A stretch of 47,067 nucleotides of DNA from the NCBI GenBank assembly GCA_947623175.1, contig CANQGK010000019.1, positions 1 through 47,067 of the forward strand. Direction: 5' to 3'. The translations under genes were made by a program, and so were the position numbers. Source of the DNA: an uncultured Clostridia bacterium. Lineage in GTDB: Bacteria > Bacillota > Clostridia > Oscillospirales > Acutalibacteraceae. The notes below the pieces were generated by a model. That model made no database searches and was not told the DNA's origin. It saw only the letters and a list, made by a program, of their open reading frames with translations. This document shows positions 7,911 through 12,784 of this stretch, in pieces; within the stretch, counting starts at the first letter, position 1; the number at the start of each line of letters is the position of its first letter.

Positions 7911-8797
7911 ATGACCGCAAAGGAAAAAATGCATAATACCGAGCTTTATCTGCCGAGCGACAGAGAGCTTTTAAAAGAACAGCAGAAGTGCCTGGATAAG
8001 CTTTATGATTTTAACCGTATACGCCCGTCCGAGTATGAGAAAAGGGCGGCGCTGCAAAAGGAAATGTTTGCCGAGGTCGGAGAAGATTGCTATATCGAAT
8101 CGCCTTTACATGCGAATTGGGGCGGGCGGCATGTGCATTTGGGCAAAAACGTTAGTCAATGCAATCATATTACAATGCGTTTTGCGTGTAACGACGTCCG
8201 CGCCCGCTTTGTCGCACGGTCTTACCATACGACAGTATGCTCTCAACCGTGCTTCGCGCGGAACACGAACGGCGTTCTCATGCAAAATCTTCGACCCGAG
8301 TCGGAGCGGATTTTTTCGTCCGGCAAGGAAGAGGACGCAGGAATACTGTCGTATTTCAAGGACGATGACACAGGCGGCGGAGAAATCCGTCCGCCTCGGG
8401 CGCATTGTAATCTGATTGCATTGACTATGCCAATTTTAATTTAACTTTGGTAGACGATACTCATATTTATATCGGCGATTATACCATGCTCGGCCCCAAC
8501 GTTACGATCGCGACGGCGGGGCATCCGCTGCTGCCGGAGCTTCGCGAAAAGGGTTATCAATATAACGCGCCCGTGCATATCGGAAAAAATTGCTGGCTCG
8601 GCGCCGGCGTTATTATCCTGCCGGGAATTACCGTCGGCGATAATACGGTAATAGGCGCGGGCAGCATAGTGACCAAGGACCTGCCGGCAAACGTTTTGGC
8701 GGTGGGAAACCCTTGCAGGATTTTACGCGAAATAGGCGAGCACGACAGAAAATATTATTTTAAAGACCGAGAAATCGACGAGAGTATATTCGAGTAA
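7911..8797 (+). pseudogene. maa: Sugar O-acetyltransferase (maltose acetyltransferase type), split by an element
   Basis: Positions 7911-8152 encode the N-terminal 80 residues of a hexapeptide-repeat O-acetyltransferase (NodL/LacA/Maa group). Positions 8428-8797 encode the rest, including IGDYTMLGPNVTIATAGHP with the catalytic His and the left-handed beta-helix repeats VHIGKNCWLGAGVIILPG. A 271-bp miniature element interrupts it after HLGKNV. Reading from the ATG continues through the element for about 90 codons and stops at 8444, so any product lacks the active site. Removing the element and one TA leaves the halves one base out of frame, so either a base was also lost or excision would not restore the gene. 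The intact enzyme would acetylate maltose or similar sugars. GGAG lies before the ATG. Confidence 0.93.
8155..8425 (+). mobile_element. Complete miniature element, copy B (271 bp)
   Basis: Flanked by TA at 8153-8154 and 8426-8427, with 25-bp terminal inverted repeats (one mismatch) starting GTCAATGCAATCA. No transposase is encoded, so it is a MITE-like non-autonomous element; TA duplication suggests IS630/Tc1-mariner-type mobilisation (inference). Compared with copy C it has an extra 42 bp (about 8220-8261). That extra segment forms a hairpin (GCACGGT with ACCGTGC, inner CATAC/GTATG). A 12-mer ATACGACAGTAT (8227-8238) recurs inverted at 8343-8354. A strong 10-bp hairpin with GAAA loop lies near 8371-8395. 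Confidence 0.9.
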
Positions 8798-8984: not shown

Positions 8985-9060
8985 GGGGTTTTAGCGCAGT
9001 TGGTAGCGCACCACACTGGCAGTGTGGGGGTCAGGGGTTCGAATCCCCTAAGCTCCACCA
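8985..9060 (+). tRNA. tRNA-Ala (anticodon GGC)
   Basis: A 76-nt cloverleaf with encoded CCA. The anticodon stem CCACA/TGTGG frames the loop CTGGCAG, anticodon GGC, reading GCC. The acceptor stem has G3 opposite T70, the alanine identity pair. The T arm is AGGGG-TTCGAAT-CCCCT. It is a single-gene transcript with its own promoter and terminator. Confidence 0.97.
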
Positions 9061-9096
9061 AAAATCGGCAAGCGAATTTTTACGCTTGCCGATTTT
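9061..9096 (+). terminator. Terminator of tRNA-Ala
   Basis: A perfect 14-bp stem (AAAATCGGCAAGCG at 9061-9074 with its complement at 9083-9096) and an 8-nt loop directly follow the tRNA. A-rich and T-rich ends make it bidirectional. Confidence 0.85.
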
Positions 9097-9160: not shown

Positions 9161-9189
9161 TTGACATTAGCGGCGAAAAAGAGTATAGT
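9161..9189 (+). promoter_or_regulatory. Promoter whose -10 box spans the element junction
   Basis: TTGACA (9161-9166), a 17-bp spacer and TATAGT (9184-9189). The first four -10 bases are host DNA and the last two are the first bases of element copy C. Joining the two flanks without the element would give TATATT, so the insertion kept a usable -10 box. Transcription would run through the element into the ABC exporter gene at 9472. Confidence 0.7.
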
Positions 9190-9416
9190 CAATGCAATCA
9201 GATTAAAATGTGCCCGAGGCGGACGGATTTCTCCGCCGCCTGTGTCATCGTCCTTGAAATACGACAGTATTCCCGCGTCCTCTTCCTTGCCGGACGAAAA
9301 AATCCGCTCCGACTCGGGTCGAAGATTTTGCATGAGAACGCCGTTCGTGTTCCGTGCGACAAAGCGGGCGCGGACGTCGTTCCACGCAAAACGCATTGTA
9401 ATCTGATTGCATTGAC
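9188..9416 (-). mobile_element. Complete miniature element, copy C (229 bp, inverted)
   Basis: The same family as copy B in reverse orientation, flanked by TA at 9186-9187 and 9417-9418. The terminal repeats are 25 bp with two mismatches. It lacks exactly the 42-bp hairpin segment of copy B (271 against 229 bp) and is otherwise nearly identical. One minus-strand frame stays open through the whole element. It lies between the -35/-10 region and the ribosome binding site of the ABC exporter gene, so it forms most of that mRNA's leader. Confidence 0.9.
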
Positions 9417-9420
9417 TATT

Positions 9421-9471: not shown

Positions 9472-11835
9472 ATGATTACGAAAGAAAAACAGCCGAAAAC
9501 GGAAGCCGCCGAACGGGAAGCGGAGAGTATTTATGTAAACGAACCTTTCCGCGGACAAAAGCTGCTTGCCAACAAAAAACTGACCGACGAAGATCTTAAA
9601 AAACTTGAACGTATCATTCCGCAGTCCGAAAAGCTTCTCTTTGTGATTGCGGGAGATTTGAATATTCACAGCAAGTACGCAAAATCGCTGCTTGCGGTGA
9701 CCGACAAACAGATTTACGGATTTGACGACGCCTTTGAAAACGGCGTACGTACTTATCAATATTCCGACGTAAAACGGGCGTACGTTAAGCGCTGTTACGG
9801 AAACGCAATGCTCGTCTTTTCCAAAGACGACAGCAAAGCGGAGGAAGTCGACCTTACCAAGGAGCATGTGGCATTCCTCAGGTTCTCTTACCGCGTCGCT
9901 TCGCTTTATGATTCCGCCGCGCATTTTATACAGGACGTCGCCGAAGGGAAGGACTTAAACGAGGCTTTGCAGGTTGTGGAAGCCTCCTTTGAGAAGCAGT
10001 TTATGGTCTGCCCCCGCTGTGGGCGAAACCTGATCCGTCCGGGCGCTCCATGTATGAATTGCAAATCCAAGAAAAAGGTGATCGGCAAGATCGCGGGGTA
10101 TATTATGCCTTACAAGACTACGCTGATCTTCTGCCTCGTGCTTTCGGTCGTAACAACCGCGGCTTCGCTGGTGCCGCCCTATATGACGGGAATGCTGGTG
10201 GACGACGTTTTGCCCACCGGAAACGGTAATATGCTGCTTATGTGCGTCGGCGTACTGTTTGCCACCTATCTTTTGCAATACGGTGTGGGCGCGCTGCGTT
10301 CTTATCTTTTGAAAATCAGCGGCGACAGCATTGTCGCGGATTTACGCAACGACGTTTACGAAAAAGCCCAGCATTTGACAATGCGCTTCTATGACCGCAC
10401 CTCCACGGGCGCCGTGATCAACCGCATCAGCGGCGATACCAATACGATACAGGCTTTTATGCTGCGTATTACCCAAGAGGTCGTGGTGCAGTTCTTCCTT
10501 TTGATAGGTATTGTCATAATTATGTTTACGCGAAATTGGCGGCTCACCCTGCTTTCCCTGCTGCCCGTGCCTATCGTCGTTATAGGCTCGCGAATTTTCG
10601 GAAAGAAAATCGCGCCCTTTTATCGCCGTATCTGGCGCAGATGGTCGGCGGTGACCTCCATTCTTACCGATACGATCCCCGGAATCCGCGTAATTAAAGC
10701 CTTTGCAAACGAAAAGTCCAGCGTCGATAATTTTGAGACCTACAACAATGAATGGCTTAAAACCGATATTCAGGCCTCGCGCATTACCACGCTGTTTCCG
10801 AATATCGTAAACCTCGTCATCACCTGCGGCTCCCTATTGATATGGGGAATCGGCGGTAATCTCGTCATAAAAAATCCCGACGGCTTTTCCGCGGGTCTGT
10901 TGGTATCCTTCATCTCCTACACTTCGATGTTTTACGGGCCGGTAAATTTCTTTGCCAACCTCAACGACTCCTATCAGCAGGCGCTCAACGCCGTGGAGCG
11001 GGTAATGGATATTATAGACGCCGAGCCGGAGAGTAATTTTGCCGAGGGCAAGCATCCGGACAGGTTGTTTGGAAAAATCGAGTTTCGCAACGTGAACTTT
11101 TCCTTTGACCGCTCGAAAAAGACGCTTTCCAATATAAATCTCACCATAGAGCCGGGCGATATCGTGGGAATCGTGGGAACCACCGGCGCGGGAAAATCCA
11201 CGCTGATCCATTTGCTCATGCGCTATTACGACTCTTACGACGGGGAAATTTTAGTGGACGGCGTTAACATTCGGGATATCGATCTGCAATTTTACCGTTC
11301 GGAAATCGGCTACGTTCAGCAGGAGCCTTTGATGTTCCACGATTCTATATTTAACAATATTGCCTTCGGCACCCAAAATACCCACGTCGAGGAGGTAATA
11401 AACGCCGCCGAGGTCGCCAACGCCCATGAGTTTATCGCCCGACTTCCCGACGCTTATGACACCGTCCTCGGAGAGCGGGGAACGGGGCTTTCCGGCGGTG
11501 AGAGACAGCGCCTTTCCATAGCCCGCGCCGTTCTTAAAAATCCGAGTATTCTCTTCTTTGATGAGGCTACGGCTTCCGTGGACTCGGAGACCGAAAGTCT
11601 CATTCAGGACGCTATCGAGCGCCTTATCCAGGGGCGTACCACGCTGATGATCGCCCACCGGCTTTCCACTTTGCGTAAAGCCAACAAGATTATCGTGGTG
11701 GATCATGGAGAAATTCTCGAAATGGGTTCGCCCGAGGAGCTTATGGAAAAGAAGGGAAAATATTACAAGTTGATTCAGATCCAGACCATGTCCGATCAAA
11801 TCCGCAAAACGAAGGAAGAGGAGAGATTTGAATAA
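9472..11835 (+). CDS. ABC exporter with PH-like and zinc-ribbon N-terminal regions (DUF1854-associated)
   Basis: A 787-residue half-transporter. Residues about 35-160 look like a bacterial PH-like domain (KLLFVIAGDLNIHSKYAKS, then LLAVTDKQIYGFDD). A zinc ribbon follows with Cys180, Cys183, Cys194 and Cys197 (CPRCGR, CMNC). Six membrane segments run from about residue 205, then the ATPase domain with Walker A GTTGAGKST (near 570), LSGGERQRLS (near 673) and FFDEATAS (near 693). A TTG at 9436 is possible, but the ATG at 9472 has GAGGT about 10 nt upstream. In proteobacteria, ABC genes of this type pair with DUF1854 in cyanophycin clusters; no cyanophycin synthetase gene is visible here, so the substrate is unknown. 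The stop overlaps the next ATG. Confidence 0.9.
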   Translation: MITKEKQPKTEAAEREAESIYVNEPFRGQKLLANKKLTDEDLKKLERIIPQSEKLLFVIAGDLNIHSKYAKSLLAVTDKQIYGFDDAFENGVRTYQYSDVKRAYVKRCYGNAMLVFSKDDSKAEEVDLTKEHVAFLRFSYRVASLYDSAAHFIQDVAEGKDLNEALQVVEASFEKQFMVCPRCGRNLIRPGAPCMNCKSKKKVIGKIAGYIMPYKTTLIFCLVLSVVTTAASLVPPYMTGMLVDDVLPTGNGNMLLMCVGVLFATYLLQYGVGALRSYLLKISGDSIVADLRNDVYEKAQHLTMRFYDRTSTGAVINRISGDTNTIQAFMLRITQEVVVQFFLLIGIVIIMFTRNWRLTLLSLLPVPIVVIGSRIFGKKIAPFYRRIWRRWSAVTSILTDTIPGIRVIKAFANEKSSVDNFETYNNEWLKTDIQASRITTLFPNIVNLVITCGSLLIWGIGGNLVIKNPDGFSAGLLVSFISYTSMFYGPVNFFANLNDSYQQALNAVERVMDIIDAEPESNFAEGKHPDRLFGKIEFRNVNFSFDRSKKTLSNINLTIEPGDIVGIVGTTGAGKSTLIHLLMRYYDSYDGEILVDGVNIRDIDLQFYRSEIGYVQQEPLMFHDSIFNNIAFGTQNTHVEEVINAAEVANAHEFIARLPDAYDTVLGERGTGLSGGERQRLSIARAVLKNPSILFFDEATASVDSETESLIQDAIERLIQGRTTLMIAHRLSTLRKANKIIVVDHGEILEMGSPEELMEKKGKYYKLIQIQTMSDQIRKTKEEERFE

Positions 11836-12323
11836 TGGCACGGTTGTATATTGAAGCCGATATGGCGCACTTTACCCGCAAGGATATAACTCTTGTTGAT
11901 ATGGAGCTCTACGACGGAAGATTTTTCGAAAATTTAGAGCCGCGACGGCTTTTTCCGCTTACGGGACTCACAAAATACATTACGCTGCTTGATCCCCTCG
12001 GCGATGAGCGGGCGATTATCCGAAATCTTGCCACCCTGCCGGAAGAGGACCGCAGAATTATCGAGGAATGCCTCGACGAATACTATCTGATTCCGAAGGT
12101 CACGAAAATCATTGCCTGTCGGGAGAAATTCGGACTTTTATCCATCGAAACCGAGACGGATAAGGGGCCTGCGACGATCGAAATTCGGAATATCATTCAT
12201 GGCATTAAGCTTATGTACGGGATCCGCGTGCTCTTTCGCGATAACAACGATAACCGATACGAAATTCCCGATTTGAATAAATTGGATCGGGACAGTCGGG
12301 CTAAAATCGACGCATTCTTATAA
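11835..12323 (+). CDS. DUF1854 family protein
   Basis: A 162-residue soluble protein. The DUF1854 pattern is visible: a strand with LLDPLGDERAIIRNLATLP, a helix with IIEECLDEYYLIPKVTKI, the core LLSIETETDKGPATIEI, and the tail RYEIPDLNKLDRDSRAKI. The biochemical role is unknown. It is co-encoded with the ABC exporter (TAATG overlap), as in other bacteria, so it is probably a subunit or regulator of that transporter. GGAGAG lies 11 nt before the ATG. Confidence 0.85.
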   Translation: MARLYIEADMAHFTRKDITLVDMELYDGRFFENLEPRRLFPLTGLTKYITLLDPLGDERAIIRNLATLPEEDRRIIEECLDEYYLIPKVTKIIACREKFGLLSIETETDKGPATIEIRNIIHGIKLMYGIRVLFRDNNDNRYEIPDLNKLDRDSRAKIDAFL

Positions 12324-12344
12324 ATAACGAAAGGAGAGGTGATA

Positions 12345-12671
12345 ATGAAACTGATTCTTGCAATCGTAAACAACGACGACAGCGCAATCGCCGCAGCCTC
12401 GCTGACGGAAGCGGGATTCTTTGTTACCAAGCTGTCCACTACCGGCGGATTTTTGATGGTCGGCAATACCACGCTTTTGATCGGTACGGAAGAAAAAGAC
12501 GTAGAAGTCGTGCTCGATTTGCTCAAAAAATACTGTACCACCCGCAAGCAAATGAATACGCCGACAAGCTCTTTCGGCGCGGGATTGCAAAACTTCAGCC
12601 TCCCTGAGGAAGTGACGGTCAGCGGCGCAACGGTCTTTGTGCTGGGGGTAGACCGGATGGAGAAGCTGTAA
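12345..12671 (+). CDS. darA: Cyclic-di-AMP receptor DarA/PstA
   Basis: A 108-residue PII-like protein that binds c-di-AMP. It matches the family through MKLILAIVNNDDS, then FFVTKLSTTGGFLMVGNTTL, whose TKL, GGFL and GNTT residues form the nucleotide pocket, and the end VSGATVFVLGVDRMEKL. A GTG at 12339 is in frame, but AGGAGAGGT is correctly spaced for the ATG at 12345. It starts 21 bp after the DUF1854 gene and before a shared terminator, so it is the third gene of that operon. In Bacillus and many Firmicutes darA is next to tmk/holB, so this placement is unusual and suggests a link to the exporter. Confidence 0.92.
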   Translation: MKLILAIVNNDDSAIAAASLTEAGFFVTKLSTTGGFLMVGNTTLLIGTEEKDVEVVLDLLKKYCTTRKQMNTPTSSFGAGLQNFSLPEEVTVSGATVFVLGVDRMEKL

Positions 12672-12741
12672 ATTTGTGCGGCAAAGCTTACCGCACCGCT
12701 TTCCCTTTTTTAAAATTTTACCGATTACGGAAAAAAACGGA

Positions 12742-12784
12742 AAAACCGCCGTCTCAAAGGTAACCGCGAGACGGCGGTTTTTTG
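12742..12784 (+). terminator. Terminator of the ABC-DUF1854-darA operon
   Basis: A perfect stem AAAACCGCCGTCTC (12742-12755) with its complement (12768-12781), 12-nt loop and trailing T run. Confidence 0.9.

Follow-up and report, generated by a model that had tools for sequence, protein, structure and literature searches.

Why does a gene for a receptor of the cyclic di-AMP (c-di-AMP) family DarA close an operon that otherwise encodes an ATP-binding cassette (ABC) exporter and a DUF1854 protein? This arrangement is found in the window, a stretch of 47,067 nucleotides from an uncultured Clostridia bacterium (contig CANQGK010000019.1), where the three genes form one tight operon closed by a strong terminator: the exporter and DUF1854 reading frames overlap by a single base (TAATG), 21 bases separate DUF1854 from darA, and the terminator stretch folds better than 200 of 200 shuffled versions (z -4.15; Table 1). 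Coordinates, Pfam matches and the hairpin fold confirm the operon as laid out in the original prediction, a reading of the window made without database searches. We suggest that the locus encodes a c-di-AMP-gated ABC exporter, in the form of a self-contained, horizontally moving three-gene unit in which DarA would dock on the DUF1854 protein, and from the sequence comparisons given here we put the probability of this reading at about 0.6. The exporter would then probably be switched by c-di-AMP and be the first likely target of the DarA family, whose partners are still called unknown in the accessible text of a paper of December 2025 (PMC12802241).

The three-gene linkage is not peculiar to the window and recurs in many Clostridia of the gut. 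In the order sample (394 genomes, 141 of them with DUF1854), at least 17 of the genomes with DUF1854, from six family codes, have darA directly behind it. The DUF1854 proteins of these 17 loci were aligned into a profile (A1) for a search of named genome contigs and, because only the best 80 of 192 confirmed loci were analysed, this set is the subfamily nearest to the query; its members belong to Clostridia or subgroups of Clostridia, including one candidate genus. An exporter coding sequence stands upstream of DUF1854 in all 80, and DarA is encoded downstream in 75, within 100 bp in 73 of them and with a median gap of 24 bp (in L123 darA lies at 319 bp and is cut by the contig end, and in L134 one gene intervenes). 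Two other contigs end 113 and 363 bp past DUF1854 (L116 and L152), and three of the 80 loci (L094, L096, and L147) have room downstream and no DarA. The class sample (391 genomes) holds 16 loci scoring at least 213 bits with A1, the window included, of which 15 are followed by DarA and the last (L160) ends at a contig edge; it adds six family codes, giving 12 overall. Among the 398 genomes of the phylum sample, only the window's own locus reaches 213 bits. Sensor and transporter genes are thus conservedly paired, as in PII-type regulation, and the idea that the adjacency might be confined to this genome, which the original prediction had named as fatal to itself, fails because of the 75 loci of 80 and the at least 17 genomes of 141.

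Nothing else travels with the three genes. When 16 linked loci were compared, with antisense and overlapping readings of the three genes set aside, only the exporter, DUF1854, and DarA families were common to all, and every other flank cluster occurred in two loci only; across the 80 named loci no fourth conserved gene was found, the commonest flank family occurring in 11, on both strands and on both sides. The order, class, and named samples overlap in several loci, so that 85 loci were reduced to 75 non-identical ones for a comparison of distances, in which DarA distances track those of DUF1854 and of the exporter (r 0.68-0.79, with none of 2000 permutations as high), a correlation that includes shared ancestry. 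In one locus (L143) the exporter is split into two overlapping reading frames and DarA is strongly diverged, which could mean decay of this copy or an error in the contig.

The DarA protein of the window scores well above the Pfam cut-off of 27 bits for CdAMP_rec (Table 1), and its nearest solved relatives are Lmo2692 (PstA) and Bacillus subtilis YaaQ. With the NCBI DarA equivalog NF058593, on the other hand, it reaches 112.5 bits against a cut-off of 140, and for this reason we call it a DarA paralogue; its gene follows DUF1854 rather than lying with holB and tmk or a decarboxylase gene. It resembles the housekeeping receptor DarA/PstA in fold family, length, and ligand-contact residues. In a tree of 112 DarA rows, the 88 linked rows and one exception form a starred group (Shimodaira-Hasegawa-like approximate likelihood ratio, SH-aLRT, 95), outside which fall the remaining 21 unlinked rows and both references, and many forks of this tree are unresolved because it has 108 columns only. 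The linked DarAs are a clade separate from the housekeeping copies of the holB locus. Neighbours of the unlinked copies, named by Pfam at 6 loci of 22 copies, include holB (five), PSP1 (three), and an Orn/Lys/Arg decarboxylase (two), which is consistent with the conserved operon, including tmk, described for PstA in the accessible text of PMC4475381. The c-di-AMP receptor of the original prediction was rightly placed in its family and is here narrowed to an exporter-linked clade that sits neither in the tmk operon nor at the holB-PSP1 locus. Six of the 17 linked genomes of the order sample carry a second DarA elsewhere. The window's genome (94% complete) has a single DarA over threshold, that of the window, and its holB-PSP1 locus (L184, G000:C33) is without darA, so that the exporter-linked copy seems to be its sole DarA.

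The linked clade retains the residues that contact c-di-AMP in PstA (PMC4475381, accessible text). All 88 linked DarAs keep T28, G34, G35, L37, N41, and the equivalent of F99, 87 keep F36 and G47, and 66 keep the equivalent of T97; the protein of the window itself has T28, G35-L37, N41, and G47. Each of the 17 linked order-sample genomes encodes a diadenylate cyclase, as do 39 of the 40 genomes tested altogether; the cyclase by itself is uninformative on the unit since the DarA-less relatives tested have it too.

The evidence bearing most directly on a DarA partner comes from the DUF1854 protein, which exceeds its Pfam cut-off of 26.8 bits, has a single copy over threshold in its genome, and gives a predicted model with a mean predicted local distance difference test score (pLDDT) of 92.4 and a predicted template modelling score (pTM) of 0.73. 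When the order sample was rescanned with A1, three groups emerged: the 17 linked loci at 246 bits or more, a score that is high partly by construction since A1 was built from these 17, 16 loci at 129-196 bits, and the other listed loci below 111 bits. Exporter-DUF1854 pairs without DarA occur in the 16 genomes of the middle group (13 loci inspected) and likewise at L094, L096, and L147, and DarA is therefore not needed for export itself. No DarA is encoded anywhere in 15 of these 16 genomes. Of the 20 known loci of the middle kind, L050 among those examined earlier, a set of 16 (order sample 12, class sample 4) has one exporter gene per locus and no DarA in the stretch seen, which at L225 ends 16 bases past DUF1854. 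In trees of DUF1854 and exporter combined (98 rows and 63 rows, with column 44 excluded), some DarA-less pairs are basal and four DarA-less lineages are nested among the DarA-bearing ones; on the best trees the DarA state changes five times, which we read as one gain and about four losses. A single clade of the 12 nested DarA-less rows, a group named after the tree was seen, is rejected for the 63-row tree by the approximately unbiased (AU) test (p-AU 2.7e-68).

Loss of DarA is accompanied by change at one DUF1854 residue. Of 76 DarA-bearing rows, 75 have glycine at position 44, and the four loss lineages read D,A,N,N,N, then D,V, then S, and then M,R,K,L there; no other of the 27 DUF1854 columns with 98% conservation changed in all four, with 0.0007 such columns expected from the per-lineage rates. 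None of the 187 exporter columns conserved at 98% did so. At an 80% threshold G44 is joined by K47, three residues further on, and in a larger set glycine occupies position 44 in 105 of 106 DarA-bearing proteins and in none of 11 proteins of type B, the exporter-DUF1854-exporter units described below. Gly44 is predicted to lie in a loop between strands 30-38 and 47-52. This pattern is a strong hint that DUF1854 is the partner of DarA, and no more than that because the test was post hoc and the independent losses are few; on the same grounds DUF1854 appears a likelier DarA contact than the exporter, the two candidates that the original prediction had named for binding tests.

Several observations weigh against this interpretation. 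Apart from the DarA-less pairs themselves and the score below the NCBI cut-off, one genome of the middle group (G153) has DarA elsewhere, and G303 carries a linked-clade DarA without an adjoining DUF1854 (L071, G303:C23:42992-43300), the exception in the tree. Starred branches force only four changes of DarA state in the 98-row tree and three in the 63-row tree, so that, one forced change being the gain, three or two losses are firm; some forks are weak (L223, for example, has support of 12 and 42), and as change counts cannot tell loss from regain, some DarA genes may have been regained. As to position 44, L102 has DarA but alanine there, the basal DarA-less L222 keeps the glycine, the residue was chosen after the data had been seen, and the starred branches leave four phylogenetically independent pairs in the 98-row tree (sign test 0.125) or three in the 63-row tree (0.25), too few for significance by that test. 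The DUF1854 model has no match in the PDB at E <= 0.001, and its fold is not explained by solved structures. The DarA of L071 lies directly 3' of glmM-like and glmS-like genes, named by eye; GlmM is tied to c-di-AMP synthesis.

The exporter is MsbA-like, with ABC_membrane and ABC_tran domains and complete ATPase motifs in segments that we take to be Walker A (aa 569-577), a Q-loop, LSGGERQR (673-680), Walker B (693-702), and an H-loop. PH folds top the Foldseek and VIA match lists for the model of its N-terminus, none of them at a Foldseek E <= 0.001, and the only Pfam PH match is PF23633 (E 0.22), below its cut-off, so that the PH fold is suggested by the predicted structure. All four cysteines of the adjoining ribbon are invariant in 55 aligned exporters and would bind zinc. 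The PH-like and zinc-ribbon regions of the original prediction are thereby supported. Its proposal that c-di-AMP controls the export of a polymer or peptide fares less evenly: the locus is best read as a new c-di-AMP output, and a polymer or peptide cargo is still a guess.

Movement of the unit between lineages is suggested by sequence identities. Compared with the exporter of the window, those of G375 and G091, two genomes of another family, show 81% and 79% identity and that of G157 shows 76%, against 55% within its own family (G209) and 53% within its own genus (G358). The housekeeping protein PSP1 gives 49%, 47%, 54%, 54%, and 58% for G375, G091, G157, G209, and G358, respectively. Because exporter identity is high to other families where PSP1 identity is low, we infer that the three-gene unit moves horizontally.

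On this basis a mechanism can be proposed. Two copies of the ABC half-transporter would form the exporter, probably a homodimer, with the PH-like domain and zinc ribbon in its cytoplasmic N-terminus and DUF1854 as a cytoplasmic partner. The dedicated DarA paralogue, presumably a trimer binding c-di-AMP between its subunits, would dock on DUF1854 at or near the Gly44 loop and turn the exporter on or off with the level of c-di-AMP, by analogy with GlnK and AmtB. Without its ligand, DarA may keep the exporter in a single state, probably the blocked one, from which c-di-AMP may release it by moving the DarA loops. GlnK blocks Amt (PMC3198391, accessible text), and because PstA is reported to be harmful when c-di-AMP is low (PMC12802241, accessible text), our guess is that DarA binds actively in its ligand-free form. 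In its most specific form, in which the DarA clade docks through the glycine-centred loop and gates a dedicated exporter carried on a mobile three-gene cassette, we would give the proposal even odds.

Other explanations of the linkage have to be weighed against docking on DUF1854. DarA may contact the exporter itself, at the PH-like domain and zinc ribbon or at the ATPase domain, with DUF1854 acting as an assembly factor only. PH-like domains often bind partners, K106, R107, Y109, and N111 of the exporter are invariant in 55 aligned sequences, and DarA distances correlate with those of the N-terminal part (r 0.76) and of the transmembrane part (r 0.78); however, none of 187 exporter columns against one of 27 DUF1854 columns changed in all DarA-loss lineages, and the zinc ribbon is kept in the four DarA-less exporters inspected (L050, L094, L096, and L147), so we regard this as unlikely. 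Rather improbable, to a similar degree, is that the genes are merely co-expressed, for dosage or through joint arrival, and that DarA acts on another target. Operon membership is no proof of contact, housekeeping darA copies adjoin unrelated genes (holB, PSP1, and decarboxylase), and the linked-clade DarA of G303 adjoins the glmM-like and glmS-like genes, but against co-expression alone stand the persistence of the linkage across 12 family codes where nothing else is kept and the constraint on a DUF1854 residue, which holds only as long as DarA is there.

Two further possibilities concern the ligand and appear very improbable. The exporter might secrete c-di-AMP or another nucleotide, with DarA sensing the exporter's own substrate; a c-di-AMP receptor does adjoin the exporter, other transporter families are known to export c-di-AMP, and the cyclase found in all five DarA-less genomes tested (G358, G034, G053, G069, and G083) leaves room for it, but the pair exists without DarA, which is missing altogether from 15 of the 16 such genomes in the order sample. 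The linked DarA might, on the other hand, have ceased to sense c-di-AMP and respond to another ligand or to none, as its diverged clade with signature residues S13, A19, S31, and V39, its score below the NCBI cut-off, and a position 26 that is not arginine in the commonest types could indicate; against this, 87 or all 88 of the linked DarAs retain T28, G35, F36, L37, N41, and G47, and PstA of Lmo binds c-di-AMP with glycine at position 26 (PMC4475381, accessible text).

Sensor and transporter genes are paired for GlnK-AmtB and SbtB-SbtA. These systems, in which a PII-fold sensor acts on a transporter, serve as a model for the mechanism (PMC3198391 and PMC8352866, accessible text); they are a channel or carrier with other ligands, whereas the window encodes an ATP-driven exporter with DUF1854 as an extra partner and c-di-AMP as the signal. 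AexB of B. subtilis is an exporter with a PII-like part, but this cap is built into the carrier as one of its domains, and the accessible text of PMC13170310 names no c-di-AMP receptor. The cyanophycin-associated ABC and DUF1854 families (NF052233 and NF052234) represent the same gene pair, and the window exporter matches nearly the whole model, including its N-terminal part; both proteins nevertheless fall below the curated cut-offs (583.4 of 880 bits for the exporter and 67.8 of 150 bits for DUF1854), and a cyanophycin synthetase (TIGR02068) over cut-off is found in none of 31 DarA-linked genomes and in one of 54 searched (G693, unlinked), so the cyanophycin link mentioned in the original prediction does not extend to this unit.

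Type B units share with the window a DUF1854 gene between or beside exporter genes, but they have a second exporter gene in 7 of 11 loci compared (the remaining four stretches are short), their DUF1854 proteins score below 118 bits with A1, and none of the 11 has an adjacent DarA (L049 has a DarA of the unlinked type 4.6 kb upstream). They form a larger, lower-scoring group in Clostridia (L049, L051, L052, and others), with ABC-DUF1854-ABC order where both sides are seen, and DUF1854 loci with similar scores occur elsewhere in the phylum, judged from DUF1854 genes only. Among the open-licence papers searched, none dealt with DUF1854 and none linked DarA with an ABC exporter. Coupling of a PII-like sensor to a transporter is of a known kind; what would be new here is the sensor clade, the type of transporter, and the additional partner. 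The receptor DarA/PstA is conserved widely, and the tie of the linked clade to one transporter and one small protein points to a concrete candidate partner, with DUF1854 G44 predicted at or near the interface. If the proposal holds, DarA/PstA would gain its first identified partner, c-di-AMP would for the first time be seen to gate an ABC exporter by way of a PII-like protein, and DUF1854 would acquire a role in an extension of PII-type transporter control to an ABC exporter.

Table 1. Features of the exporter-DUF1854-darA locus in window coordinates.
Feature	Position	Strand	Basis
ABC exporter half-transporter, 787 aa	9472..11835	+	PH-like domain, zinc ribbon, transmembrane domain, ATPase domain; Pfam
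PH-like domain of exporter, ~aa 33-158	9568..9945	+	predicted model m129daad6883b, pLDDT 89.7
VKRCYGN segment in PH-like domain, aa 105-111	9784..9804	+	alignment of 55 exporters
Putative zinc ribbon CPRC-x10-CMNC, Cys 180, 183, 194, 197	10009..10062	+	cysteines
DUF1854 protein, 162 aa, DarA-linked subfamily	11835..12323	+	PF08909, 122.9 bits
DUF1854 segment LEPRRLFPLTGLTKYITLLD with Gly44	11934..11993 (Gly44 codon 11964-11966)	+	conservation, predicted model
DarA paralogue, 108 aa, c-di-AMP receptor family	12345..12671	+	PF06153, 109.7 bits
c-di-AMP contact segment of DarA: T28, GGFL 34-37, N41, G47	12426..12485	+	alignment, contacts from PMC4475381 (accessible text)
Intrinsic terminator hairpin, then T run	12740..12783	+	predicted fold, 16-pair outer stem
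Sigma-70-like promoter candidate TTGACA-17-TATAGT	9161..9189	+	11/12 consensus match only

Upstream of the operon, the promoter candidate is one of 11 such sites found in 8 kb, against 7.4 expected. A repeat of about 250 bp is present in two inverted copies (8153-8437 and 9176-9419), with one arm of 184 nt matching at 96% and another of 67 nt at 97%, and the copies resemble small insertion elements; the first lies within an apparent O-acetyltransferase gene (7911-8444 and 8447-8797, judged by eye) and the second just 5' of the exporter. A tRNA gene and, behind it, a terminator-like hairpin (8985-9096) separate the O-acetyltransferase remnant from the exporter operon.

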